Part shown: piece by piece, positions 2,951-52,035 of the stretch
Numbering within the stretch: the first letter of the stretch is position 1
Layout of the letters: each line of letters opens with the position of its first letter
Origin: Anaerolineae bacterium
GTDB taxonomy: Bacteria; Chloroflexota; Anaerolineae; Aggregatilineales; UBA2796
Length of the DNA: 64,000 bases
Reading direction: 5' to 3'
Assembly (NCBI GenBank): GCA_019637555.1
Contig: JAHBVK010000032.1
Coordinates: 1 to 64,000, forward strand
Notes under the pieces: generated by a model
Databases searched by the model: none
What the model saw: only the letters and a program-made list of their open reading frames with translations
What the model was told of the DNA's origin: nothing
Position numbers and translations under genes: made by a program

Positions 2951-4444
2951 ATGACCGCTGCCACATCATCCCGCTTTAGGCTACCTTTACTAGACACCCG
3001 GCGGCTGATGGTGGCGCTGCTGTTCATCCTGATCTTTGCTATGGCGACGCGCATCCCCGTCGATACCGATACGTGGTGGCACGTCCGCAGCGGCGAATGG
3101 ATGCTCGATAACGGCAGAATCTTGATGCAAGACCCCTTCTCTTTCACCCGCGAGGGGCAGGCGTGGATCAATCACAGTTGGGGCGCACAACTAATCATGG
3201 TGCTGTTTTACCGCGCGCTTGGCAACGCCGGATTAGCCTTCTACACGGCGATTCTGGCGACGGCGGGCATGGCGGTGGTCTATTTGATGTGCGAAGGTAA
3301 TGTTTATGTGCGCGCCTTCGTGATCGTGATCGCGGCGGCAGCGGCGGCGGTGTTCTGGTCAGCACGTCCGCAGATGACCTCGTTTTTCCTCAGTACGGTG
3401 ACGCTCTATCTGCTGCATCTGTATAAACGCAAGCACATAGATCGCCTGTGGCTGCTGCCTCTACTGATGATCCTATGGGTGAACCTGCATGGCGGATTCG
3501 CCATCGGCTTCATCCTGCTGTTCGGCATGATCGGTGGCGAGGTCTTGGGACGCCTCTTTGACGGCGCGAATCCTGATGTGCTATCGTGGCGGCAGATCGG
3601 CAAACTGACGCTGATCACGGCGCTGTGTGCGCTGGCGCTGGTGGTTAATCCCAACACCGTGCAGATGTGGGGCTATCCTTTCCGCACCTTCGGCATCGGC
3701 GTGTTGCAGCAGTTCATTCAAGAGTGGAACTCGCCCAACTTTCACGGGCGGGAGACGTGGCCCTTCATCTTTTTGCTGCTCGGCACGTTAGCGGCGGTGG
3801 GACTCGGCAGCAAGCGCATCGACTGGACGGATCTGGCGCTGGTCAGTGGGACGGCGTTCATGTCGCTCTACGCCGGACGCAACATCGCCACCTTCGCCAT
3901 CGTCGCTGCACCGGTGCTGACACGGCATCTGCACGCGCTGCTGGAAGAACGCGGGTTGCGGCTGGGGCGTCCACGACCAGTACGTGCTGTCGGCTTGGTC
4001 ATTAACTACCTGCTGCTATTACTAGTCTTAGTCGGAGCGCTGCTGTACATCGTGGGCATCCTCTTACCGTCCTCCGTCGCTAAAGCGCAAACAGAATATC
4101 TGCCCGTCGAGGCGGCGAACTACCTCAATAAGTCAGTCGATCCAGCGACGGCGGGCAACCTGTTCAACAGCTATAACTGGGGCGGTTATTTGCTGTTCGC
4201 CGCGCCGCAGTTCAAAGTCTTCGTCGATGGGCGCACCGATCTTTACGACGACGAACTGCTGCGCGAGTGGATCGACGCGGCGACGGGAAAGAACTGGCAG
4301 CAGATTTTCGAGAAGTGGCGGATCGGGCTGGTGGTGATCGAGAAGGATGGTTCGCTTGCCGGATTGCTGCGTAGCGACGCCGCGTGGCAAGAAGTCTACA
4401 GCGACGACAAAGCCGCAATCTTCAAACGGAGCGCGGCATCGTGA
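2951..4444 (+). CDS. Polytopic membrane protein, GT-C-like with C-terminal soluble domain
   Basis: 497 residues. The first membrane segment is at about residues 15-33, followed by a loop with DTDTWWHVRSGEWML and DPFSFTREGQAWINHSW. This is the conserved first loop of a family of predicted membrane glycosyltransferases. About ten further hydrophobic segments follow to residue 375. A soluble C-terminal domain then carries NWGGYLLF and KVFVDGRTDLYDD, also a family signature. AGGA at 2940-2943 is a plausible ribosome site. The stop codon overlaps the GTG start of the next gene (GTGA at 4441-4444), making this the first of three coupled membrane genes. Substrate unknown. Confidence 0.65.
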   Translation: MTAATSSRFRLPLLDTRRLMVALLFILIFAMATRIPVDTDTWWHVRSGEWMLDNGRILMQDPFSFTREGQAWINHSWGAQLIMVLFYRALGNAGLAFYTAILATAGMAVVYLMCEGNVYVRAFVIVIAAAAAAVFWSARPQMTSFFLSTVTLYLLHLYKRKHIDRLWLLPLLMILWVNLHGGFAIGFILLFGMIGGEVLGRLFDGANPDVLSWRQIGKLTLITALCALALVVNPNTVQMWGYPFRTFGIGVLQQFIQEWNSPNFHGRETWPFIFLLLGTLAAVGLGSKRIDWTDLALVSGTAFMSLYAGRNIATFAIVAAPVLTRHLHALLEERGLRLGRPRPVRAVGLVINYLLLLLVLVGALLYIVGILLPSSVAKAQTEYLPVEAANYLNKSVDPATAGNLFNSYNWGGYLLFAAPQFKVFVDGRTDLYDDELLREWIDAATGKNWQQIFEKWRIGLVVIEKDGSLAGLLRSDAAWQEVYSDDKAAIFKRSAAS

Positions 4445-5688
4445 AAGAGTTCGCCCTGCTGCGAGATCGGCGCACGCTGCTTTATCTGTTAATTGGGTTC
4501 CGCCTGATGCTGCTGATCGTCTACCAGCCATATCTGATCAATGGTGTCGAGCGCGGACTCTCGACCTTTGGCGACTTCCAGCATTACTACAATCTGGCGG
4601 CGCTGTCGGGGCAGGGATCGCTGCCTTACCGCGATTACTGGTACGAGTTCCCGCCCGTATTCCCACTGATCTCGCTGACGGCGTATTCGCTGACGGGCAC
4701 AGCCGCCGATTTCACCGCCTACGCTACGCTGCTTGCCATCATCATGCTGGCGTTCGATGTCGGCAATCTGCTGCTGATCATGCGCCTGGGATCGCGCTTG
4801 CACGGCGAGGGAACGGGCATCGCGCTCGGCTGGATTTACGGATTGCTTGCCGCGCCGCTGATCTTCTCCTCGTGGACGTTCGAGCCGATCGTCTGTTTCG
4901 CGCTGCTGCTAGTGCTGACGTGGCTGACCGAACGGCGCGATCTGCCCGCCGCGCTTGCCATCGCCTTCGGTGCGCTGACCAAGCTGTATCCGCTTATCTT
5001 GCTGGCGGCGGTATGGCGCTTTCGTCACCGCGATCAGGCGATCCGCGTCACGGCGATCACAGTGGCGGTCACTGCTGTTGGCATCGCCGCCATGCTGCAG
5101 ATCGCGGGCAAATTCGGCGTCCCTTCGCTGGCGGCGCAGTTCAACAAGGCGAGTTACCAGACGGTCTGGGCGCTGATCGACGGCAACTATCGCACAGGTA
5201 ATTTTGGTCCCATTGCCGATCACTTCCTGCCGGAGAAGGCATACGAACTGTTGGGCAATCCCGCGCGGATTCCCTCGTGGCTGCGGCTGATCCCTTTCGC
5301 GCTGATCGGTGCGTTCGTCTATGCGCGTACCCGCCGCTTCGATGATCGCGGGCTGCTGGCGTTTGCGACTATCACCATCACCATTTTCTTCCTGTGGTCG
5401 CAGGGCTGGAGTCCGCAGTGGTTAATGGTGCTGATCCCATTGCTGCTGCTGAATTTTCCAGATCGCAACGGTGTGTTGATCTCGTTACTGCTGATGCTCG
5501 GTAGTTTCATCGAGTATCCGCTGCTGTTCGCCCGCACCGCCGAAACTGCTGGCGCGATCAGCGGATCTCAGCTTCCCATCTTCACCGCGCTGATCCTGCT
5601 GCGAACCGCGATTCTGATCGGCGTGAGTATGGCGCTGTACCGTTCGCTGCGCCTGCAACGTGATCCGAGTGAGGTGACGGCGACATGA
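4441..5688 (+). CDS. GT87-like (DUF2029) membrane mannosyltransferase
   Basis: 415 residues from a GTG start that overlaps the preceding stop as GTGA. The longer frame from 4384 would overlap the previous gene by 60 bases without reason. The first loop has GDFQHYYNLAALSGQGSLPY followed by RDYWYEFPPVFPL, the aspartate and PYRDY-EYPP pattern typical of GT87/DUF2029 polyprenyl-phosphate-sugar transferases. ALTKLYPLILL in the middle matches a second family signature. About eleven membrane segments are visible. It lies in a chain of coupled genes and probably transfers a sugar on the outer face of the cytoplasmic membrane. The acceptor is unknown. Confidence 0.72.
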   Translation: MKEFALLRDRRTLLYLLIGFRLMLLIVYQPYLINGVERGLSTFGDFQHYYNLAALSGQGSLPYRDYWYEFPPVFPLISLTAYSLTGTAADFTAYATLLAIIMLAFDVGNLLLIMRLGSRLHGEGTGIALGWIYGLLAAPLIFSSWTFEPIVCFALLLVLTWLTERRDLPAALAIAFGALTKLYPLILLAAVWRFRHRDQAIRVTAITVAVTAVGIAAMLQIAGKFGVPSLAAQFNKASYQTVWALIDGNYRTGNFGPIADHFLPEKAYELLGNPARIPSWLRLIPFALIGAFVYARTRRFDDRGLLAFATITITIFFLWSQGWSPQWLMVLIPLLLLNFPDRNGVLISLLLMLGSFIEYPLLFARTAETAGAISGSQLPIFTALILLRTAILIGVSMALYRSLRLQRDPSEVTAT

Positions 5689-6914
5689 CCAGAAAAGTCG
5701 TACTGATCGCGTTCTTCTCCCTGTTCTTTGCGCTGCTGGTGTGGGCGATGTACACCTATTTCACCAAGCCGTATCCGGGTGCGAACGACTTTTTTCAGCG
5801 TTGGCATGGCGCACACGCATTCTGGGTGGAAGGCAAGAATCCCTACAGCGATGAAGTCTCGCTAGGCGCTGAGATGTATCTCTACGGCGCACCCGCCAGC
5901 AGCGATCCGGCGCTGGATCAGTACCCCGGCGATTTTCTGTACCCCTTCCCGATGGCGATCTTACTCGCGCCGATAGCGATATTAAACGAATATGCGCTTG
6001 CCTCCGCGATCTGGTTGGTGCTGACGGGGACGCTGGTCGGGCTATCCTTCGCGCTGTTGGCACAGATGTACGGTTGGAAGCTCTCGCCGTTGATGCTGGT
6101 GTTCGGCGTGGCATGGGCGGTGACGTTGTATCCCGATGCACGCGGCTTGTTTCTCGGTCAGCCGGGCACGATCACCGTCTGTCTGCACTTGATCGCGCTG
6201 TGGGCGATCTGGAGGAAGCAGGACATCCTCGCCGGAGTGCTGTTGGCGCTGTCGATCTACAAACCGCAGATCGGGTTCCTGATCATCCCCTTTCTGCTGC
6301 TGTGGGCGCTGCGAGTCTATCGCTGGCGTATCGTGATCAGCTTCGGCGTCACGGCGGGCGCATTGATCCTGCTCTCGTTCCTGTTCGTCCCTTCGTGGTT
6401 GGGCGATTGGCTGCAACAGGCGGCGCAATATACTGGCTACACGCGCATCGGATCGCCGGTGTGGGTGGTGACGCACGTTTATTTGCCTTTCCTCGGTGAT
6501 GCGGGCGAACTGCTGATCGGCGCATTACTGGTTCTGTTCATGCTGTGGGCGTGGTGGCGCGTGATCTGGCGCAACGAACAGGCGTTGTTCGCGTGGACAG
6601 CGGCGCTGACTCTGGCGGTCACTCATCTGATCGCCGTGCGTACCGCCACGCCGCACTTCGTCGCCTATCTGCCCGTGCTGGTGCTGACCATGCGCCAGAT
6701 CGCCCGCACGGATCGGCGCACAGGATCGCTGCGTGCTGCCGCCGTGATGGTCGCGCTCAGTGCCGCGCTGTGGGTATTATTCCTGACTACACTGGAGGGG
6801 CGCTTCGAGCATCCCGCCAACTATTTGCCGCTGCCCTTCGGATCGCTGATTCTGTTATCCTTGCTGCGGCGCGATTGGTGGCGACTGCCGATCCCCACAT
6901 CGCCAGCCTCGTGA
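5685..6914 (+). CDS. GT87 (DUF2029) family membrane glycosyltransferase
   Basis: 409 residues. After a first membrane segment (about 6-24) comes NDFFQRWHGAHAFWVEGKNPY, then DFLYPFPMAIL, and later LSIYKPQIGFLIIP. These are the three signatures of GT87 enzymes, with the Asp as probable catalytic base. The enzyme should use a polyprenyl-phosphate sugar on the periplasmic/outer side. The ATG overlaps the previous TGA (ATGA at 5685-5688), so it is the third and last gene of the coupled set. It converges on the gyrI-like gene 17 bp downstream. Confidence 0.8.
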   Translation: MTRKVVLIAFFSLFFALLVWAMYTYFTKPYPGANDFFQRWHGAHAFWVEGKNPYSDEVSLGAEMYLYGAPASSDPALDQYPGDFLYPFPMAILLAPIAILNEYALASAIWLVLTGTLVGLSFALLAQMYGWKLSPLMLVFGVAWAVTLYPDARGLFLGQPGTITVCLHLIALWAIWRKQDILAGVLLALSIYKPQIGFLIIPFLLLWALRVYRWRIVISFGVTAGALILLSFLFVPSWLGDWLQQAAQYTGYTRIGSPVWVVTHVYLPFLGDAGELLIGALLVLFMLWAWWRVIWRNEQALFAWTAALTLAVTHLIAVRTATPHFVAYLPVLVLTMRQIARTDRRTGSLRAAAVMVALSAALWVLFLTTLEGRFEHPANYLPLPFGSLILLSLLRRDWWRLPIPTSPAS

Positions 6915-6931
6915 CAAAGCCGCCCCATACG

Positions 6932-7501
6932 TCAATCAGCCAGCTTAATCGCCACCTCAACTTCCCATTTCGTTTTAAGCGGCTGGATTTTAGGATCGGT
7001 CAGATAGGCTTCATAGCGCGACTTGAAGGCAGTGCCCTTCGGATCAGCCCATTGATCAAACGCAAGTCCGTTCTCGATGCCCCATCTGGTTAAGGCTCCG
7101 TTGCCAGTATAGCCGTTGTTAATGTAAATCAGGCTGGCATAGCGACCAGCAGGCAGCACGCCGAGACGCACGCGACCATTACCCGGCAACGCTTCAGCAA
7201 CCGGAATCCCGACTTCAATATCCATCTCGCCTTCCATATTGATGACGTGGTAGCGAAGAATTGGCGACCCTGCTGGCTCGATGCCCTCTTGTTTCAGCCA
7301 CGCTCTTAACTCCTTAAACAGATGCTTGTCAACCACCGTGAACATGCCCTTAAAGGGAGTCTGCGTCCTGATCCCCATATAGTGCTGTTCGGGGCGCTCG
7401 TCGATCTTAGGTTTGCCAACGAGGGTACGGTTAACCAAGGTGAAACGACTATCGTGCGGTTCGGGCTGCTTAACGATCTTGGGTTTTGTAGCTTTGGTCA
7501 T
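6932..7501 (-). CDS. GyrI-like small-molecule-binding domain protein
   Basis: 189 residues of the GyrI-like/AraC-effector-binding (SOUL-like) fold without a DNA-binding domain. Recognisable stretches are MGIRTQTPFKGMF near residue 41, a central GIPVAEALPGNGRV, LPAGRYASLIYINNGY (the P-x-G-x-Y-A core strand), and KWEVEVAIKL at the end. Such stand-alone domains bind small hydrophobic or cationic ligands. The ATG overlaps the TGA of the upstream MerR-type regulator, which has the same kind of ligand domain, so the pair probably deals with the same compound. Ligand unknown. Confidence 0.8.
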   Translation of the reverse strand: MTKATKPKIVKQPEPHDSRFTLVNRTLVGKPKIDERPEQHYMGIRTQTPFKGMFTVVDKHLFKELRAWLKQEGIEPAGSPILRYHVINMEGEMDIEVGIPVAEALPGNGRVRLGVLPAGRYASLIYINNGYTGNGALTRWGIENGLAFDQWADPKGTAFKSRYEAYLTDPKIQPLKTKWEVEVAIKLAD

Positions 7502-8316
7502 GAACGTTTCTCCACTGGATACTGAATTTCGGTTGCAGAATCTGTCATATTCTCCCGATCATGCTTGATATAGATTTCACGGTAGGTGCCGACAGTCTCA
7601 TAGCTATGGGCTTCAATCCACCTGAGCAGCGCTGTATGCTCCTGAACTAAATTCTTGAACGCCCCGTAATGGATCACTGAGGCGACCTGAGTGCGTGGCA
7701 ATTCATAGACCTTGACCTGATCCGAACCCGGCACGGCGTGGTCAATCGGAACGGCTGCCTCCGCCACTTCATTGGCGAGTGTCTCAGCGGGTTGATGCCA
7801 TATCGCAAACCAATCGCCAATGGCTCTAGCACCATTTGTCGTGGCGTAGTTGTAGGCTTCAAACAGAGCCGCATCCAGATACAGCGGAACCTGATCATTG
7901 GTTGGAATAGTGACGCTGCGCGAGGCAATCAGCACCGCTGGAACCATTTTCAAGACAACATCGTACTCTGGCATATTGTCCTCCGATTCGATTTGCTTCA
8001 GTCGGACTTCAATACGTGTCAGTCGCGCCTGCTCATCCGCAATTTGCTGTTGGACTTCTGCCTGTTTCAGTTTCAACATGCCGCGTAATTGTTCTACAGT
8101 CAGACCATTCAGCACTTGCTCAATCTGATCTAGCGAAAACCCCAAATCCTTCAGGGCTAGAATCCGGTTGAGGCGCGGCAACTGCGCAACTGAGTAGTAG
8201 CGATAGTTGGTAGCAATATCGACAGCAATAGGCTTAAGCAGGTCGATCTCGTCATAATGCCGTAAGGTCACGACTGAAACTTGACCGATACGGGCAAAAT
8301 CACCGATTCTGATCAT
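7498..8316 (-). CDS. MerR family regulator with GyrI-like effector domain
   Basis: 272 residues. Residues 1-70 are a MerR winged helix (IGDFARIGQVSVVTLRHYDEIDLLKP, then YRYYSVAQLPRLNRILALKDLGFSLDQIEQVL; shown here in pieces of the same stretch). Residues 75-115 form the dimer coiled coil, and 118-265 a GyrI-like ligand domain with the MVPAVLIASRS and YGAFKNL strands. This BmrR/BltR-like layout is typical of drug-responsive activators. Its own promoter region has a 19-bp spacer, the MerR hallmark. It is coupled by ATGA to the stand-alone GyrI-like gene. I infer control of its own operon; the inducing compound is unknown. Confidence 0.9.
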   Translation of the reverse strand: MIRIGDFARIGQVSVVTLRHYDEIDLLKPIAVDIATNYRYYSVAQLPRLNRILALKDLGFSLDQIEQVLNGLTVEQLRGMLKLKQAEVQQQIADEQARLTRIEVRLKQIESEDNMPEYDVVLKMVPAVLIASRSVTIPTNDQVPLYLDAALFEAYNYATTNGARAIGDWFAIWHQPAETLANEVAEAAVPIDHAVPGSDQVKVYELPRTQVASVIHYGAFKNLVQEHTALLRWIEAHSYETVGTYREIYIKHDRENMTDSATEIQYPVEKRS

Positions 8317-8347
8317 CTTGTTATCCTATGCGCACAGAGCTGTAATA

Positions 8348-8378
8348 ACTATACGGTCTCAGGTAAGGTTAGAGTCAA
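8348..8378 (-). promoter_or_regulatory. MerR-type promoter with 19-bp spacer
   Basis: On the minus strand, TTGACT (8378-8373) and TATAGT (8353-8348) are separated by 19 bp instead of 17. This overlong spacer is the classic target that MerR-family activators untwist. It lies 32 bp upstream of the merR-like ATG at 8316, so autoregulation is likely. Confidence 0.65.
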
Positions 8379-8426
8379 GAAGTAGTTTCAGAGACAATCC
8401 TGAAGTCTGTGGAGTCGAGGAGTAAT

Positions 8427-9959
8427 ATGAAACGACTGCTGCCGATCTTAGCGATCCTCGTGCTAGCGCTGGTTTTGCGCCTGATCGCCATCAATACGCG
8501 CGTCCTGTGGTATGACGAAGCGTTCGCCGTGCTGTTCAGCGAGAAGGGCGTCGATGCCATGCTCTATGGCACGCTGACGCCCGTGAACGGCGCTGCCGCC
8601 GATGTGCATCCACTGCTCTATTACACCTCGCTCAACGGCTGGATGAAGCTCTTTGGCGAGTCCAACTACAGCGTGCGGTTGTGGAGTGTGATCTTAGGCT
8701 TGGGCACGATCCTCGCCGTTTATTTACTGGCGAAGGAGTTGTACGAGGAACGTGTCGCCCTCGCCGCCGCGCTGATCACCGCCCTCGCGCCTTTTCACGT
8801 GCAGTATTCGCAAGAGGTGCGCATGTACGCACTGCTCGGCTTGCTGCTGATTAGTGCGACGTGGTGTTTCTTCCGCGCCATCCGCACCAACAAACTGATC
8901 GATTGGCTCGGCTTCGGCGTGTTGGCGGGATTAAGTATGTACACGCAGCAGCTTGCCGCCTTTTATCTGGCATCGCTCGGCGTGATCCCGTTCCTCCTGC
9001 GTCGCCGCGATCTGATCCTGCGGACGGTGTTAGCGGCTGGATTGGCACTGTTGATCTACCTGCCGTGGCTGGTCAATCTGCCCGCACAGTTGGGCAAAGT
9101 CGGGCAATATTGGATCACCAAACCGACTCCCGTGCAGCCGTTGCTATCGCTGTGGTCATTCTTATTCGTGGAACTGGAAGTGACGCAGCCTGCCGCCGTG
9201 ATCGCCAGCATCGTCGCGCTGACGCTGATCCTTGTCTTTCTGGCGCTGCGGGCGTTACCTGTCTTTCGCCGCAACTCGGCTGATGCCCGTTCGCTGGCAC
9301 TGATCCTATGGCTGCTAATCGCCCCTATCGCCTTAATGTGGATCGTCTCGCAACTACGCGCTGTTTATCTTACCCGCGCACTGCAAGGATCGGCGCTGGC
9401 GCTGTACATTGCGATGGGCTGGCTGGCGACGCGATCCCGCCTGCCGCTGGCGATCCGCGTGCTGGTGTTCGGCGCATGGATCATCGCCGTTGGCTTCGGG
9501 CTGATCAATCTATATACGTGGAACACCTTCCCGCGTCCGCGCTTCGATCTGGCGCTGCGTACCGTTGCTGCTGATGCAACGGCAACCACGCGCATCATCC
9601 ACGCCAATAAGCTGACCATGCTGCCGATGATCTACTACGCCCGCTTCATTGATGGCAGCATCGCGCAGCACTACATTCAGGATGTGCCCGGTTCCGGTGA
9701 GGACACACTCGGCTTGCCCACGCAGCAGGCGCTCGGGTTGCTGGCGGATCGCTGTGCGGCGGAAGCGGCTGGCGGCGCGGATCAGGTCTGGTTCGTCATC
9801 TTCAAGCGGCAGTTAGAAGAATTGGGCGGCGTCTCGCCTGAGATCACATGGCTGGACGCGCATTATCATCGGCTGACCGAAGTGCCGATTAACGATCTGC
9901 TGTTGATCCTGTATGATCAGCCGGATTCGAGCGCCGCTACCGCCACCTGTGATGGATAA
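8427..9959 (+). CDS. GT39-like (PMT/ArnT type) membrane glycosyltransferase
   Basis: 510 residues from the ATG at 8427, preceded by AGGAG at 8418-8422; the frame also extends to a GTG at 8409. After the first membrane segment comes RVLWYDEAFAVLFSE, with the acidic pair used by GT-C enzymes, then DVHPLLYYTSLNGWMKLFG and QYSQEVRMYALLGL. Together these define the ArnT/PMT-like glycosyltransferase family 39. About eleven membrane segments are followed by a soluble tail from residue 380. It probably transfers a sugar from a polyprenyl-phosphate donor. It runs into the kinase gene 5 bp downstream, suggesting an operon. Confidence 0.82.
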   Translation: MKRLLPILAILVLALVLRLIAINTRVLWYDEAFAVLFSEKGVDAMLYGTLTPVNGAAADVHPLLYYTSLNGWMKLFGESNYSVRLWSVILGLGTILAVYLLAKELYEERVALAAALITALAPFHVQYSQEVRMYALLGLLLISATWCFFRAIRTNKLIDWLGFGVLAGLSMYTQQLAAFYLASLGVIPFLLRRRDLILRTVLAAGLALLIYLPWLVNLPAQLGKVGQYWITKPTPVQPLLSLWSFLFVELEVTQPAAVIASIVALTLILVFLALRALPVFRRNSADARSLALILWLLIAPIALMWIVSQLRAVYLTRALQGSALALYIAMGWLATRSRLPLAIRVLVFGAWIIAVGFGLINLYTWNTFPRPRFDLALRTVAADATATTRIIHANKLTMLPMIYYARFIDGSIAQHYIQDVPGSGEDTLGLPTQQALGLLADRCAAEAAGGADQVWFVIFKRQLEELGGVSPEITWLDAHYHRLTEVPINDLLLILYDQPDSSAATATCDG

Positions 9960-9964
9960 CCAAG

Positions 9965-11329
9965 TTGACCGCTGATCCCGATCCCAAGCCGCCGCGCACC
10001 TCCGATATTTACGGCATTCTGGTGCATCCGTTCGCGCCGCGTGTCTTACTGTTGGAACAGGAGTCCGGCATATGGACACTGCCGCACATTCACTTGCCGG
10101 ATAGCCGCTTGTTCTTCCCGCTGGTCGAACTGCCGAACAAGCAATTAGGCGATCTGCTGGCGGCGGAAGTGACCGCGCTGCGTACTGTCTACAGCCATTA
10201 CACCGAAGATCACAATCACGTCGATCTGATCTACAGTTTGGAGAATCACAGCCCCAATTGGCTGCCGCCCATGCCCTCGCGCTGGGCAAACCGCGAAGAA
10301 CTGGCAGCAATCGCGCTGGCGTTCCCCGCACACCGCGCCGTGATCGAGGCGGAGTTAGCGGAAGCCGAAACGCAGGACATCCCCGCGCTACGTCCGCTGT
10401 GGGCGCGGCACGATTGGTTCACGGAAGCAGCGGCGTGGATGCGCGATCAACTGGCGCGGCATGGCTACAATCTGATCGGACGGATCGAGCAGATCAAAAG
10501 TTGGGGTATTTCCTGCCTGCTGCGGGCGGATACCGATCAAGGTAAGGTTTACTTCAAGGTATCCACGCCGCTGCCGCTGTTCGGTGATGAGCCACAAGTG
10601 ACGCGGGCGCTGGCGACGCGCTATCCCGCTTATGTGCCGCTGCCACTAGAGATCGAACCGACGCGGCGTTGGCTGCTGCTGCGTGACTTCGGCACGGAAT
10701 TACGTCAGCACAACAACGTGGAGACGTGGGCGGCAGCAGTGGGGCGTTTTGCCAAACTACAACGCCAGACCGCGACGGCAATTGATGAGCTATTGGCGCT
10801 AGGCTGTCTGGATCGGCGCTTGGAAGTCCTCGCCGCACAGATCGATCCGCTGCTGACGGACGACGAGGCACTAAACGGGCTATCCGCCGGGGAGATCGCG
10901 CAGCTACGGACGCTTGCGCCGCGTTTGAAGCAGTTGTGCCAGCAGGCGGCAAGTTACGGCGTTCCCGCAACGCTGACGCACGGTGATTTGCACAGCGGCA
11001 ACATCACGGCGGAATCGCTGCTCTTTTTCGATTGGACGGATGCCTGCATCGCGCATCCCTTCTTCGATCTCAGTACGCTGATCGAGGAAGCGGAGAGCTT
11101 GCCCGATGGACGGAATCGCCTGTTAGCTGCTTATCTGCCGCAGTGGACGAAATACGAGCCGGAAAAGCGGCTGCGCGAATTATGGGCGATTGTGGAACCA
11201 CTCGGCGCATTGCATCAGGCGGTCAGCTATCAGCACATTCTGGCGACGATGGAGCCAACTTCCAAGCAGGAGTTCGACTGGTCGATCCCCTTCTGGCTGC
11301 GGCGCATGATCAAGACGCTGCCTGAGTAG
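9965..11329 (+). CDS. APH-type phosphotransferase with Nudix-like N-terminal region
   Basis: 454 residues from a TTG start; no ATG is available after the in-frame stop at 9950-9952. Residues 150-440 are an aminoglycoside/choline-kinase-like fold: KVYFKVSTPLP (ATP-binding Lys), LLLRDFG, LTHGDLHSGNI (Brenner motif, catalytic Asp) and FFDWTDACIAHPFFDLSTL (Mg-binding Asp). Residues 14-125 look like a Nudix-like fold (YGILVHPF, VLLLEQESGIWTLPHI, and a strand-helix region), but no Nudix box with REXXEE is visible, so hydrolase activity is unlikely. The gene follows the GT39-like gene by 5 bp. The substrate is unknown; resistance to an aminoglycoside is only one option. Confidence 0.72.
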   Translation: MTADPDPKPPRTSDIYGILVHPFAPRVLLLEQESGIWTLPHIHLPDSRLFFPLVELPNKQLGDLLAAEVTALRTVYSHYTEDHNHVDLIYSLENHSPNWLPPMPSRWANREELAAIALAFPAHRAVIEAELAEAETQDIPALRPLWARHDWFTEAAAWMRDQLARHGYNLIGRIEQIKSWGISCLLRADTDQGKVYFKVSTPLPLFGDEPQVTRALATRYPAYVPLPLEIEPTRRWLLLRDFGTELRQHNNVETWAAAVGRFAKLQRQTATAIDELLALGCLDRRLEVLAAQIDPLLTDDEALNGLSAGEIAQLRTLAPRLKQLCQQAASYGVPATLTHGDLHSGNITAESLLFFDWTDACIAHPFFDLSTLIEEAESLPDGRNRLLAAYLPQWTKYEPEKRLRELWAIVEPLGALHQAVSYQHILATMEPTSKQEFDWSIPFWLRRMIKTLPE

Positions 11330-11342
11330 CAGCAGATTCCTA

Positions 11343-11369
11343 TTCCCGGCGCTAAAGCACCGGGCTGAA
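11343..11369. repeat. Small palindromic repeat (CCCGG...CCGGG type)
   Basis: ATTCCCGGCGCTAAAGCACC followed by GGGCTGAA. It shares ATTCCCGGC and CCGGGCTGAA with the unit at 15318-15345 and can form a hairpin. It lies between convergent genes, where it could also serve as a weak terminator. Confidence 0.6.
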
Positions 11370-11473
11370 ACCAGAGTTCACCCACTTTACGTTGGCATTA
11401 GAAGTGCTTGCTCCCGAACTAGCATTACCGCATTGTGGCGCTTGAGTATGCGGTTGGGAATGAATCCGATGTT

Positions 11474-12037
11474 TTAGTTTCTGCGGAAGCGACGCTTCCA
11501 ATCCATTCGAATGTGGATAGCTTTTTGGGGATCGTCATCCCATTCGGTTGCCAAACCAGCGCGTTCGAGGATTTCGATGATCACCCGTCCTAGCCGTCGA
11601 TGCTCTTGTTCATCATCGATCATCGCAGCAAAGTAGAGATACACGCCGTAACCATTGACCGCCAGTTCGGTAGTTTGAACGTGATAAAATACCGTGCCGC
11701 GCACATAACGATGTTTGCGCTGTTCCTCAGCGATCTCCTCAATCTCCCCTGATCCGCAAGTCCCGCAGCAGGAGAAATTCTGTCTGGCGACGATGCCTTT
11801 CTGATTAAACTCTTCAAAGGCATTGTCGAGGCGATCACAGTCAGTTGGATATTCCCATGTCGCTTGTTCGCGTTCATACTCTGCGATGTGTTGCGTGACT
11901 AGTTTGGGAACGTTATGAGTTCTAACAAACTCACGATAAGACTTACTCCTGCTAACCAGTTCAACGATCTCCGTTGAAGTATAGAAACCTCCACGCACAA
12001 GCAAGTCGATGTAATCGAACGCATCGTCTGCTGACAT
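11474..12037 (-). CDS. DUF6891-like conserved protein
   Basis: 187 residues from the ATG at 12037, which has AAAGGA six bases upstream; the longer frame overlaps the STAND ATPase gene. The region CDRLDNAFEEFNQKGIVARQ, then NFSCCGTCGSGEI and GTVFYHVQTTELAVNGYGVYLYF, followed by a C-terminal helix, matches the DUF6891 family as I remember it. CCGTCG has clustered cysteines that might bind metal. It follows the STAND ATPase gene by 16 bp and is probably cotranscribed with it. No molecular function is established. Confidence 0.65.
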   Translation of the reverse strand: MSADDAFDYIDLLVRGGFYTSTEIVELVSRSKSYREFVRTHNVPKLVTQHIAEYEREQATWEYPTDCDRLDNAFEEFNQKGIVARQNFSCCGTCGSGEIEEIAEEQRKHRYVRGTVFYHVQTTELAVNGYGVYLYFAAMIDDEQEHRRLGRVIIEILERAGLATEWDDDPQKAIHIRMDWKRRFRRN

Positions 12038-12053
12038 AGGTCGTTTCCTTTGA

Positions 12054-14159
12054 CTAACTCGCCACCTCGATCCCGCCGACTTCTTGCTGCCACAGAATTT
12101 CCGCAATCCGCGTGATCCCGTTCTTTAAATGGCGGCGGAAAGTGCTGAACGGCAGATCAAGGATTTCCGCCGCTTGCTCTTGCGTCGGCGCGGGATGGAA
12201 ATAGGTGTAGTGCAGCGCCTGATAATACTTGCCGTCGCGGGGATGCGCTTTCATCACTTCGGCGGCGTCGCGGATCAGGTTTTGCAGCGTCTGGATCAGC
12301 GTGCGTTCGTTATCGTTGGAGGTGGTACGCTGGATCACTAGGCGCGAACGCAGCAGCGGATTATCCACCAGTTCATCGGGGCGCAGCAGCGACTTCAGCG
12401 CTTCGACAATCGCTTCCTCGAATTCTTCTTGCGAAAGCACAATCGTCGGTTCGAGGCGGCGGGCGGGCGGTGCGTCACTATCCGCTTGTGCGCCCACTTC
12501 ACGCAGCGACAACATATCCAGCCACGCCGAGGGCGGTTCGGCGCGCCAGTCGTGCCCGTACATGCCGTAATGCCGACCACCGACGTTGAAATCGGCTTCC
12601 GGCAGCCGCGTCAGGTTGGCGTAACTGAAAACAGGGAACCAGAAATCGGGATTGGCAACGGGCAAATACGTATACGCCAGTCCGGGCGTGGTCAGATAGT
12701 ACTGCACCGCCACGATAAAGCAGTTGGTTTGTTCGGGCGAAACCGTCTGATATGCCTTCTGTCCCATCCAGAAGCGGAACAGCAGAATATTTTCGCCGGA
12801 GCGCAATTTGTAGCCTGCCGTATTGAATGCCTGCCACACCGCCGCCACTGCCGGATCAGTCGTCAGGTCGTCCAGCTTATTGACGGTCAGCGTCATGATG
12901 AAGCCCACCGCCTGCTCGTTGGAGTCGCGCAGCACACGCACGCTGTTCGGTTGACGCTCGAACCAGTGATGCGCAAAGTGGGCGGACTCTTCGCCTTCAT
13001 GCTGGCGCACCATGTCCAACAGCACAGGCACATCCTCAATCATCAGCTCGGTGATGCTGAGATTGCCGCGCTGCTGCCAATCGAACGCCGCGCGTACCGC
13101 CGGATTATCCTTGTGCAGGTAAATCAGATCGTAGAGCAGACGCGCCTGTTCGCTGTCCTGCTTGGGACGCAGTTTGCTGAAGTAATAATCGCGGGCGCGT
13201 TGATGCAAGCGCATGTAGCCTTCGGGGTTGCGCCAGCGCAGATCGGTGACCAGCACTTCGCGCGTCAGTTCTTGCAAGTAGATGCCATTTTCGGCGATCT
13301 CCACGAAGGACAGGTTGCGCAGCCAGTCGAATAGGTCGAAGGCGTCAGGCAGATCTAGCATCTGCGCCAGCAACGGCTCGTTCATCAAGCGCACCAGCGC
13401 ACAGGCTTCCAGCGCAATGCGATGCCGTGAACTGGGCACTCCCTTGACGAAGCGCTCCACCAGAATGCGGATCATGTCCGGTGTGTTGACCTTTTTCAGC
13501 GAGACGTTGGGTAACTGCTGCTGCTGCGCCGTATCCGCCATCAGCGAGAGTGCCAGCGGATGCCCGTAGGCGAATGCCAGAATCGCTTCGTGTTGATCTT
13601 CGGGAATGCCGCGCCGCACCAGATAATCGTGGCTTTCTTCGTGCGTCAGATTGCGCAGCGCCACCGTGCGGATCAAGTCTTGCCAGCCCGGATCGCTGTA
13701 CCATGTCGATGCCAGCGGTGCACGCCCCGCGCCTACAATCAAGACGTTTTCCGATAGGCGAGGTAGGAAAATATCGCGCAGCCAGCTTTCGATGGGGAAC
13801 AACTGCTCAAAGGTATCGATCAGCAGCACCACGCGCTGATCAACCACGCCGAGCGCCTCAATCGGTGACTGCGTTGGCTCGATTTCCATCGCAGTACGCA
13901 GGGCAGTTTGAAAAGCGTCGGGAGTGGCGTCGAAGTTGCGGGCGTCAATGCTGATGATGGGGAGTTCGCGTTCGCGTGCCAGCCGATAATATTCGTTAAG
14001 CAGCGTTGTTTTGCCGAAACCACCGGGTCCGTAAATGTACAGCATGATGAATGAGGGTTCGTCAGCGGTCAGCGCAGCTTGAAATAACTCAAGCTCAACA
14101 CTACGCCCAACGAAGCGCTGATGGCGTTTCGCCATCAATCGATCCATTAGCGATGACAT
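12054..14159 (-). CDS. STAND/AAA-type NTPase with C-terminal helix-turn-helix
   Basis: 701 residues. Residues 15-130 hold the nucleotide-binding domain: FVGRSVELELF, Walker A GPGGFGKTT near residue 44, and Walker B VVLLIDTFEQL near 108. The rest of a STAND-type ATPase/winged-helix region extends to about 330. A middle region (about 380-570, with VRVLRDSNEQAVGFIMTLTV) reminds me of a degenerate GNAT acetyltransferase fold. The last 40 residues (AAEILDLPFSTFRRHLKNG) look like a sigma-4/LuxR-type helix-turn-helix. Such proteins are usually signal-responsive regulators. A DUF6891 gene follows by 16 bp. The trigger and DNA target are unknown. Confidence 0.75.
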   Translation of the reverse strand: MSSLMDRLMAKRHQRFVGRSVELELFQAALTADEPSFIMLYIYGPGGFGKTTLLNEYYRLARERELPIISIDARNFDATPDAFQTALRTAMEIEPTQSPIEALGVVDQRVVLLIDTFEQLFPIESWLRDIFLPRLSENVLIVGAGRAPLASTWYSDPGWQDLIRTVALRNLTHEESHDYLVRRGIPEDQHEAILAFAYGHPLALSLMADTAQQQQLPNVSLKKVNTPDMIRILVERFVKGVPSSRHRIALEACALVRLMNEPLLAQMLDLPDAFDLFDWLRNLSFVEIAENGIYLQELTREVLVTDLRWRNPEGYMRLHQRARDYYFSKLRPKQDSEQARLLYDLIYLHKDNPAVRAAFDWQQRGNLSITELMIEDVPVLLDMVRQHEGEESAHFAHHWFERQPNSVRVLRDSNEQAVGFIMTLTVNKLDDLTTDPAVAAVWQAFNTAGYKLRSGENILLFRFWMGQKAYQTVSPEQTNCFIVAVQYYLTTPGLAYTYLPVANPDFWFPVFSYANLTRLPEADFNVGGRHYGMYGHDWRAEPPSAWLDMLSLREVGAQADSDAPPARRLEPTIVLSQEEFEEAIVEALKSLLRPDELVDNPLLRSRLVIQRTTSNDNERTLIQTLQNLIRDAAEVMKAHPRDGKYYQALHYTYFHPAPTQEQAAEILDLPFSTFRRHLKNGITRIAEILWQQEVGGIEVAS

Positions 14160-50454: not shown

Positions 50455-50586
50455 ATGCTCCGACAACTCGCCGCACGCTTATTCACGCGAGAAAACTTGT
50501 ACGCGGTGCTGCTCTGCCTGATCGTGATCCTGCTGATCATCGTGACCACCGACTCCGCTCCGCAGTGGATTTATCAGGGCTTCTAG
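50455..50586 (+). CDS. DltX-like acylation microprotein (43 residues)
   Basis: A 43-residue ORF with a short charged N-terminus (MLRQLAARLFTREN), one membrane helix (YAVLLCLIVILLIIV) and a short outer tail ending in PQWIYQGF. The size, single helix and C-terminal W-x-Y-x-x-F match DltX of Gram-positive D-alanylation operons, which ends F-I-Y-N-E-F. The Tyr in that motif has been reported to carry the acyl group to the acceptor. It lies 24 bp upstream of an MBOAT gene on the same strand. There is no strong ribosome site; a TATACT at 50407-50412 could be the -10. The acyl group and acceptor are unknown. Confidence 0.72.
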   Translation: MLRQLAARLFTRENLYAVLLCLIVILLIIVTTDSAPQWIYQGF

Positions 50587-50610
50587 CCTAACCGCAGGAT
50601 TGCTTATTCG

Positions 50611-52035
50611 ATGACGCTTCTCAATATCGGGATTTTTGCTGGCGGTGCGCTCATTTTTGGCTTGCTGCGTCCCCAATGGCGCGGCTGGGCGCTGCTCATC
50701 GTCAGTGTGATCGCCTTATACTGGCTGCAACCTGTCCTCACGCTATATCCTTTAGATTTCGCGCTGCCGACGGCGACAGTAGCGCTAACAGTAGCTGCGT
50801 GGCTGCTGGTGCGCGGATCGGATCGCTGGTCAGTGGACGACAAACTGACTGCGCTCGTTATTGTGGCGACGGTGCTGGCGATCACCGTTGTGGGCATCGC
50901 GGGCGCGATCACGCCATCGATTCCGCCGTCCGTAATTCAGGTGGCGCTGGCACTTCTGGCGGTGGGCGCGGTGCTGTTCGCGCTCTCACCGTTGGTGCAA
51001 GATCGCAGCAAGGCGATCCCCTTCTTCATCCTGCTGATCGTGCTGGTGTTCATCGCGCTGAAGTGGAGTCCACTGACGGAGATGATCTCAAGGTGGCTGC
51101 GGGCGCAGAGTGGTCGTACACTGTCGCTGGCGAGCGCGGCTGATATTAGCTGGCTCGGCTTTTCTTACGTCAGCTTCCGCCTGATCCACACGCTGCGCGA
51201 CAAGCAAACAGGCAAGTTACCTGATCTGACGCTGCGCGAGTATGTGACGTACGTGGTCTTTTTCCCCGCTATCACCGCCGGTCCGATTGATCGCGCCGAA
51301 CGTTTCGTCAAGGATTATCGGGCGCTGCCGACGCTGCGACCACTGCTCTCGGCAGATAGGATCATGGATGGCGGCACGCGGATCATGGTGGGGCTGCTGA
51401 AGAAGTTTGTGCTCGCCGCGCTGCTGATTAATCTGGCGATGAACGCAACCAACGTGACGCAGGCGCAAAGCACCGCAGGCTTGTGGCTGTTCGTCTACGC
51501 CTACGCCTTTCTGCTGTTCTTCGATTTCAGCGGCTACTCGGACATCGCCATCGGGATCGGCAAGCTGTACGGGATCACGCTGCCAGAAAATTTCAACGCG
51601 CCCTATCTCAAAAGTAGTCTGACCACCTTCTGGCAAAGCTGGCATATCACCCTGAGCACATGGGCGCGTTTCTACGTGTTCTCGCCGTTATCGCGGGCGC
51701 TGCTGAGCATGAAGATCAAACTGCCAACCAATCTGGTGGTGCTGATCGCGCAGGTGGCGACGATGCTGGTGATCGGGCTGTGGCACGGCATCACGTGGAA
51801 CTTCGTGATCTGGGGGCTGTGGCATGGCGTCGGGCTGTGGCTGCACAAGTTGTACGCGGATCGCACGCGCTGGTGGTATCAGGGCATGAAGTCCCGACCA
51901 GCCGTACATCGTGCGTTGGAGTGGGGCGGAATCATCCTCACCTTCCATTATGTGGTGCTCGGCTGGGTCTGGTTCGCGCTGCCGACGCCGGAATTGAGTC
52001 TCAGCGTACTGCGGCGCTTGTTCGGGCTGGAATGA
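50611..52035 (+). CDS. MBOAT family O-acyltransferase (DltB/AlgI type)
   Basis: 474 residues with about eleven membrane segments. GFSYVSFRLIHTLRD, YVTYVVFFPAITAGPIDRAERF and FDFSGYSDIAIGIGKLYGI are typical of DltB/AlgI-type MBOATs. The catalytic region is LWHGITWNFVIWGLWHGVGLW, with the invariant His of WHG in the second position. It moves an acyl group from a cytoplasmic donor across the membrane to an extracellular acceptor. GCAGGA lies before the ATG. The 43-residue microprotein gene is 24 bp upstream. No SGNH/DltD-type transferase or dltA/dltC homologue is in the window, so any other components are elsewhere. Confidence 0.93.
   Translation: MTLLNIGIFAGGALIFGLLRPQWRGWALLIVSVIALYWLQPVLTLYPLDFALPTATVALTVAAWLLVRGSDRWSVDDKLTALVIVATVLAITVVGIAGAITPSIPPSVIQVALALLAVGAVLFALSPLVQDRSKAIPFFILLIVLVFIALKWSPLTEMISRWLRAQSGRTLSLASAADISWLGFSYVSFRLIHTLRDKQTGKLPDLTLREYVTYVVFFPAITAGPIDRAERFVKDYRALPTLRPLLSADRIMDGGTRIMVGLLKKFVLAALLINLAMNATNVTQAQSTAGLWLFVYAYAFLLFFDFSGYSDIAIGIGKLYGITLPENFNAPYLKSSLTTFWQSWHITLSTWARFYVFSPLSRALLSMKIKLPTNLVVLIAQVATMLVIGLWHGITWNFVIWGLWHGVGLWLHKLYADRTRWWYQGMKSRPAVHRALEWGGIILTFHYVVLGWVWFALPTPELSLSVLRRLFGLE

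Follow-up and report, generated by a model that had tools for sequence, protein, structure and literature searches.

A Tyr shuttle mechanism, in which the residue accepts an acyl group at the MBOAT and delivers it to the SGNH protein, has been reported for the C-terminus of PatA and described for DltX (PMC12148441); a regulatory role has also been proposed for DltX (PMC11035591). Non-Dlt MBOAT pathways were described as having no DltX-like microprotein and as using acyl-CoA as the donor (PMC12148441). The Anaerolineae genes analysed here, which we call X, B, D, C and A, share with the Dlt system (DltXABCD) an AMP ligase, a carrier protein, an MBOAT, an SGNH transferase and a free single-helix microprotein with an aromatic-x-Tyr-x-x-Phe end, but their ligase A is FAAL-like and not DltA. 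With PatA/PatB (and the AlgI type) they share an MBOAT, an SGNH protein and a Tyr hexapeptide shuttle, here a putative one (PMC12148441). In PatA/PatB, however, additional helices of the MBOAT bear the hexapeptide, and acyl-CoA serves as the donor, whereas in the Anaerolineae the hexapeptide belongs to a separate protein, X, and the genes include a carrier protein and a ligase for it. The genes also resemble the pairing of a FAAL with a stand-alone acyl carrier protein, since A is FAAL-related and C lies directly upstream of it; the reviewed FAAL pathways supply polyketide, peptide and lipid synthesis (PMC11837247), while A and C are associated with an MBOAT and its SGNH partner. Literature searches, with most subscription papers outside their reach, found no work joining a FAAL, an MBOAT and an acyl carrier protein, none treating SGNH protein, MBOAT, acyl carrier protein and acyltransferase together, and none on D-alanylation in Chloroflexota.

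The window is a stretch of 64 kb (64,000 nucleotides) from an Anaerolineae bacterium. On its forward strand, at 50455..50586 including the stop codon, lies gene X, which encodes a 43-aa DltX-like membrane microprotein (MLRQLAARLFTRENLYAVLLCLIVILLIIVTTDSAPQWIYQGF) and whose position, frame and motif are conserved in Anaerolineae. An Arg-rich N-terminal tail (residues 6-12; 50470..50490), assigned to the cytoplasmic side, is followed in the alignment by an invariant EN. Hydropathy analysis gave one hydrophobic segment, a single transmembrane stretch at residues 15-32 (50497..50550; mean Kyte-Doolittle 3.06), and the codons at 50566-50583 encode the C-terminal hexapeptide WIYQGF with the candidate relay residue Tyr40. 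By the positive-inside rule, the Arg-rich N-terminus and the one hydrophobic segment suggest an N-in/C-out topology. X is thus a short protein with one helix and a C-terminal [FW]xYxxF, as expected of a free DltX-type shuttle, with the topology as predicted here; its hexapeptide opens with W, versus F in DltX. The pattern [FW]xYxxF followed by a stop codon occurs once in the six frames of the window, and that occurrence is X. Searches of X against Pfam and NCBIfam gave no match at E 10, nor did the DltX profile PF12459 at the same threshold; the genome-wide family search was silent at X, and the X profile found a chance match only in the PDB. Elsewhere in the window, at 2951-9959, there is a row of polytopic membrane proteins resembling GT-C glycosyltransferases.

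After a spacer of 24 bases (50587..50610), X is followed on the same strand and in the same reading frame by B (50611..52035), which PF03062, TIGR04091 and PDB searches identify as a DltB-like MBOAT of 474 aa with no fused C-terminal hexapeptide. B scored 79.7 bits with PF03062 (gathering cut-off 27), and its nearest PDB relative is DltB (8jem, E=4.5e-50), which is also the closest by fold. It retains SWHITLS with the catalytic His345 and WHGITW...WHG with His392, and both His residues are invariant among 48 sequences. Homologues of B are present in 47 of 61 related genomes. The earlier note had described a 43-residue ORF with one helix and a WIYQGF end, 24 bp before an MBOAT with a WHG region, and its coordinates and features agree with ours.

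In the same-genus relative and in other relatives, B is followed by D, an SGNH protein, and farther along by C, an acyl carrier protein of about 82 aa with the motif GG(L/M)(I/M)DSFSL, and by the AMP ligase A. The genome from which the window comes has all five parts over four contigs: X and B in the window, one D on contig C67 (56% identity to the same-genus D), a second D on contig C30 (42%), and C together with A on contig C25, where C lies directly upstream of A. The latter is the only A homologue of this genome at E 1e-30. A search of this genome for the DltD family PF04914 found none, so the SGNH protein would have seemed absent had the same-genus SGNH protein not been used as a query, which gave the two copies. 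The earlier note had called the system reduced and without other dlt genes. Neither description was borne out, because two SGNH genes, a carrier and an AMP ligase are present on contigs C67, C30 and C25, and such Dlt-like partners are clustered with X and B in many relatives. From this clustering, the five scattered genes would be expected to act jointly in the window's own genome.

D has the SGNH fold, the GDS and D-x-x-H blocks, and adjacency to the MBOAT in relatives. Gly104-Asp105-Ser106 and His365 are invariant, and the copy on C67 carries GDSSVWG and TDSAVHMTP. A fold search with D retrieved SGNH esterases and, weakly, DltD (TM 0.36-0.44), which is one of the full-length matches among the best hits, and a profile comparison found no sequence relation to genuine DltD. 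For A, the top NCBIfam models were the fatty-acyl models PRK07768 and PRK09192 (361 and 351 bits), with DltA models absent from its best 25 matches. Among solved structures, A is nearest to FAALs or FAAL-like domains (3kxw, 3pbk and 7r7g); FAAL structures align with A through the region after its CYAMAENT motif, where we take the FAAL-specific insertion to be located, and A scores under the curated FAAL cut-offs. It appears from these matches that A is FAAL-like and that its acid substrate is probably a fatty or other non-amino acid.

We fetched 80 loci with X alone as the query. B lay downstream of X on the same strand in 64 of them, 58 times within 100 bp; B and D were both present in 56, and all five genes in 25. 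In another 10 loci, X came directly after A and B was not nearby. Among 61 related genomes, unfused B (defined as scoring at least 190 bits, with a truncated copy in G056 counted as well) and D were found in exactly the same 41. X was present in all of these 41 and in four others, where it lies about 50 bp after A and where there is no B or D of the X-linked family; genomes with this MBOAT family but without the small ORF, which would have told against the earlier note, were thus not seen among the 61. A occurred in 42 of the 45 genomes with X versus 2 of the 16 without it, and in those two genomes A and C adjoin an MBOAT that scores in the fused-type range. The Fisher p values (X/B 2.4e-11, B/D 1.6e-16, A/X 3.2e-9) are descriptive, as the genomes are related and independence is overstated.

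Several loci have other layouts. At L136 (10194-13968), X is followed by three D genes in a row and then by A, and no B turned up in this locus; several acceptors may share one donor. At L066, L069 and L121 (about 6200-12300), tandem proteins ending NLTALM(M/V)LDA flank X. Three of these proteins gave a weak GDSL-like lipase match (PF13472, under the cut-off), and they may be further SGNH transferases that use the same X. At L058, L061, L063, L081 and L117, the A-X pair adjoins hydrogenase-maturation-like genes (with resemblance to hypA, hypB and hypF), a gene order that is conserved in part of the class.

The genes are clustered in relatives, conserved and co-occurring, their catalytic residues are in place, and B is unfused. 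With the transfer order and the Tyr relay modelled on Dlt and PatAB, we consider it quite likely that an acylation pathway of five components, fed by ACP, works across the membrane in Anaerolineae and that X and B form its membrane half, with Tyr40 of X as the relay to D. In such a pathway, A would adenylate its acid substrate (probably a fatty acid or another carboxylic acid that is not an amino acid) and load the acyl group on the phosphopantetheine of C, the dedicated carrier encoded just upstream. Acyl-C would then dock on B from the cytoplasm. The catalytic His of B would move the acyl group along the tunnel of the MBOAT and onto Tyr40, in the hexapeptide of X on the extracytoplasmic face. 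X would pass it to the catalytic Ser of D, the membrane-anchored SGNH protein (on C67 and C30), and D would esterify an extracytoplasmic acceptor, probably an envelope glycan. Several observations count against this reading: the five genes stand apart in the window's own genome, four related genomes have A-X without a B or D of the family, and D matches no DltD model and resembles DltD weakly in structure. The earlier note had also read the microprotein as an acyl relay, and by analogy this is still its most likely role; the idea of a Dlt fragment did not survive, the ligase being of the FAAL type and not DltA.

An alternative is that the five genes are a divergent but true Dlt system, in which A activates D-alanine and X, B and D move it to an envelope polymer. 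The same five roles are filled, DltB is the closest PDB relative of B, and the end of X resembles the SFIYQGF or KFIYQGF with which genuine DltX proteins of this class terminate. However, the class also has a genuine dlt operon (genome G146, locus L148), with DltC at 73, DltD at 171, DltA at 570 and DltB at 446 bits, all above their cut-offs, and the genes of the window's genome stay below the cut-offs that this operon passes. B scored 238 bits with the DltB model TIGR04091, its sole NCBIfam match (cut-off 375), and C scored 22.4 bits with the DltC model TIGR01688 (cut-off 52.35). A does not reach the cut-off of the DltA model TIGR01734 (559.85) and scores best with the fatty-acyl ligase models, and neither D copy matched PF04914 or any NCBIfam model, including TIGR04092. 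The gene orders differ as well, being X-B-D-C-A or A-X versus C-D-X-A-B in the genuine operon. The DltX profile PF12459, run over 249 genomes of the class, found two genuine DltX and none from the X family of the window. G146 carries an X of the window's family in addition to its genuine operon, and the two are therefore not alternative versions of one system. Because the genes fail the Dlt models and A is nearest to FAALs, the acyl group is probably not D-alanine. We thus regard a divergent true Dlt as unlikely; judged by its genes, the system is Dlt-like in its presumed working but is not Dlt.

Within the Anaerolineae genomes examined, 17 MBOATs carry a hexapeptide at their own C-terminus (such as PPFVYQGF or FIYFQF). 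They form one clade (support 100/99) apart from the unfused MBOATs, which in the tree are either X-linked or genuine DltB. The X profile aligns with the tails of the fused MBOATs (hhalign E=9e-7) and with the C-termini of genuine DltX from the same class (E=8e-7). The earlier note's view of X as a single-helix microprotein that resembles DltX and goes with an MBOAT, in Chloroflexota, is upheld. Since B has no hexapeptide and the X profile matches both the fused and the DltX tails, X would provide the part that B is missing; a system devoid of X would have no shuttling Tyr, none being fused to B. It could be argued instead that X serves as a structural subunit, for the stability or the regulation of B, while the relay lies elsewhere, in line with the regulatory role suggested for DltX (PMC11035591) and with the conserved residues of X outside the hexapeptide (EN, A17 and C21). 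Yet the conservation of X is strongest in the C-terminal hexapeptide with its Tyr, and B is without the fused hexapeptide that other MBOATs of these genomes bear. A purely structural X is accordingly improbable, and we favour X as the Tyr relay. An AlphaFold model in which the X stop codon (TAG, read as Gly) was read through into B gave pLDDT mostly above 90 for B and below 50 for residues 26-51, which include the X C-terminus, so that it is uninformative on the docking of Tyr40.

X and B share a reading frame in 32 of 58 close pairs, which is above expectation (binomial p=7e-4; loci L057-L136), and in many loci B starts immediately after the X stop codon (50584-50613 is the counterpart in the window). 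This layout, common in relatives, suggests that translation of the two genes is tightly coupled or that a fused gene has recently split. A second MBOAT of the same genome, on contig C71 (L003:6901-9616), has a fused C-terminal FAYVQF hexapeptide and is preceded by a 448-aa SGNH-like protein with GSS and D-x-x-H blocks and no Pfam match; it looks like a separate PatAB/AlgI-like pair. In six other genomes, carrier-protein genes lie beside fused or low-scoring MBOATs (G035:C29, G054:C151, G020:C50, G049:C13, G031:C453 and G052:C224), with A also present at G035:C29 and G054:C151, and ACP-fed acylation may extend to MBOATs with their own hexapeptide.

The X profile, searched against 84,980 species at one genome per species, placed 190 homologues. 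The 80 fetched loci came from Chloroflexota MAGs or metagenome bins except for one labelled Bacteroidetes bacterium (L125), whose X, B and D group with those of the Chloroflexota locus L127; L125 is probably a mislabelled or misbinned MAG. A 301-genome sample of the phylum gave 26 X matches, all within the same class. With 190 such places, and with the fetched ones from Chloroflexota as described, X is not a product of chance. In most of the best homologous loci, B is immediately preceded by an ORF ending SAPQWIYQGF, and in an alignment of 20 members E13, N14, P36, I39, Y40, Q41 and F43 are invariant. Compared with its same-genus homologue, X has pS=0.66 and pN=0.056, and pN is lower than pS in 4,807 of 4,851 pairwise comparisons. 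The Tyr was counted in 99 of 99 X sequences, a partly circular figure as the search pattern demanded IY, but it is also retained in the homologues found by a profile search that had no Tyr requirement, which speaks against the loss of this residue in relatives that would have undone the earlier note. A second subfamily of unfused MBOATs is accompanied by two divergent X genes, which end in QPRFVYGGF and QPRFIYTGF. By these sequence comparisons, X is a real gene that is conserved throughout the Anaerolineae and evolves under strong purifying selection. That it is a spurious ORF, never translated, is barely credible: it has only 43 codons, and inspection upstream of it gave no clear Shine-Dalgarno sequence, but pN is far under pS, there are 190 homologues, the place beside B or A is retained across loci, and the motif is kept even in the divergent genes next to the second MBOAT subfamily.

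Taken at the gene level, the results contradict the description of MBOAT pathways outside Dlt (PMC12148441) on both the absence of a microprotein and the acyl-CoA donor, as they reveal a non-Dlt MBOAT-SGNH pair accompanied by a FAAL-like ligase, a carrier protein and a free microprotein with a putative Tyr shuttle. Whether this is a separate class of acylation system in Anaerolineae, in which a FAAL-loaded ACP would feed a fatty (non-amino) acyl group through an MBOAT and the Tyr of a free microprotein to one or more separately encoded SGNH transferases and on to envelope acceptors, is a tentative proposal that we hold at slightly short of even. X is too small for most gene finders, and it is likely that routine annotation misses such an ORF, for which a putative function can now be named. 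Fused, split and genuine Dlt arrangements occur within one class, which allows a direct comparison of how the Tyr shuttle evolved and how specific it is. Finally, the five genes point to an uncharacterised envelope modification in an abundant and poorly studied lineage.
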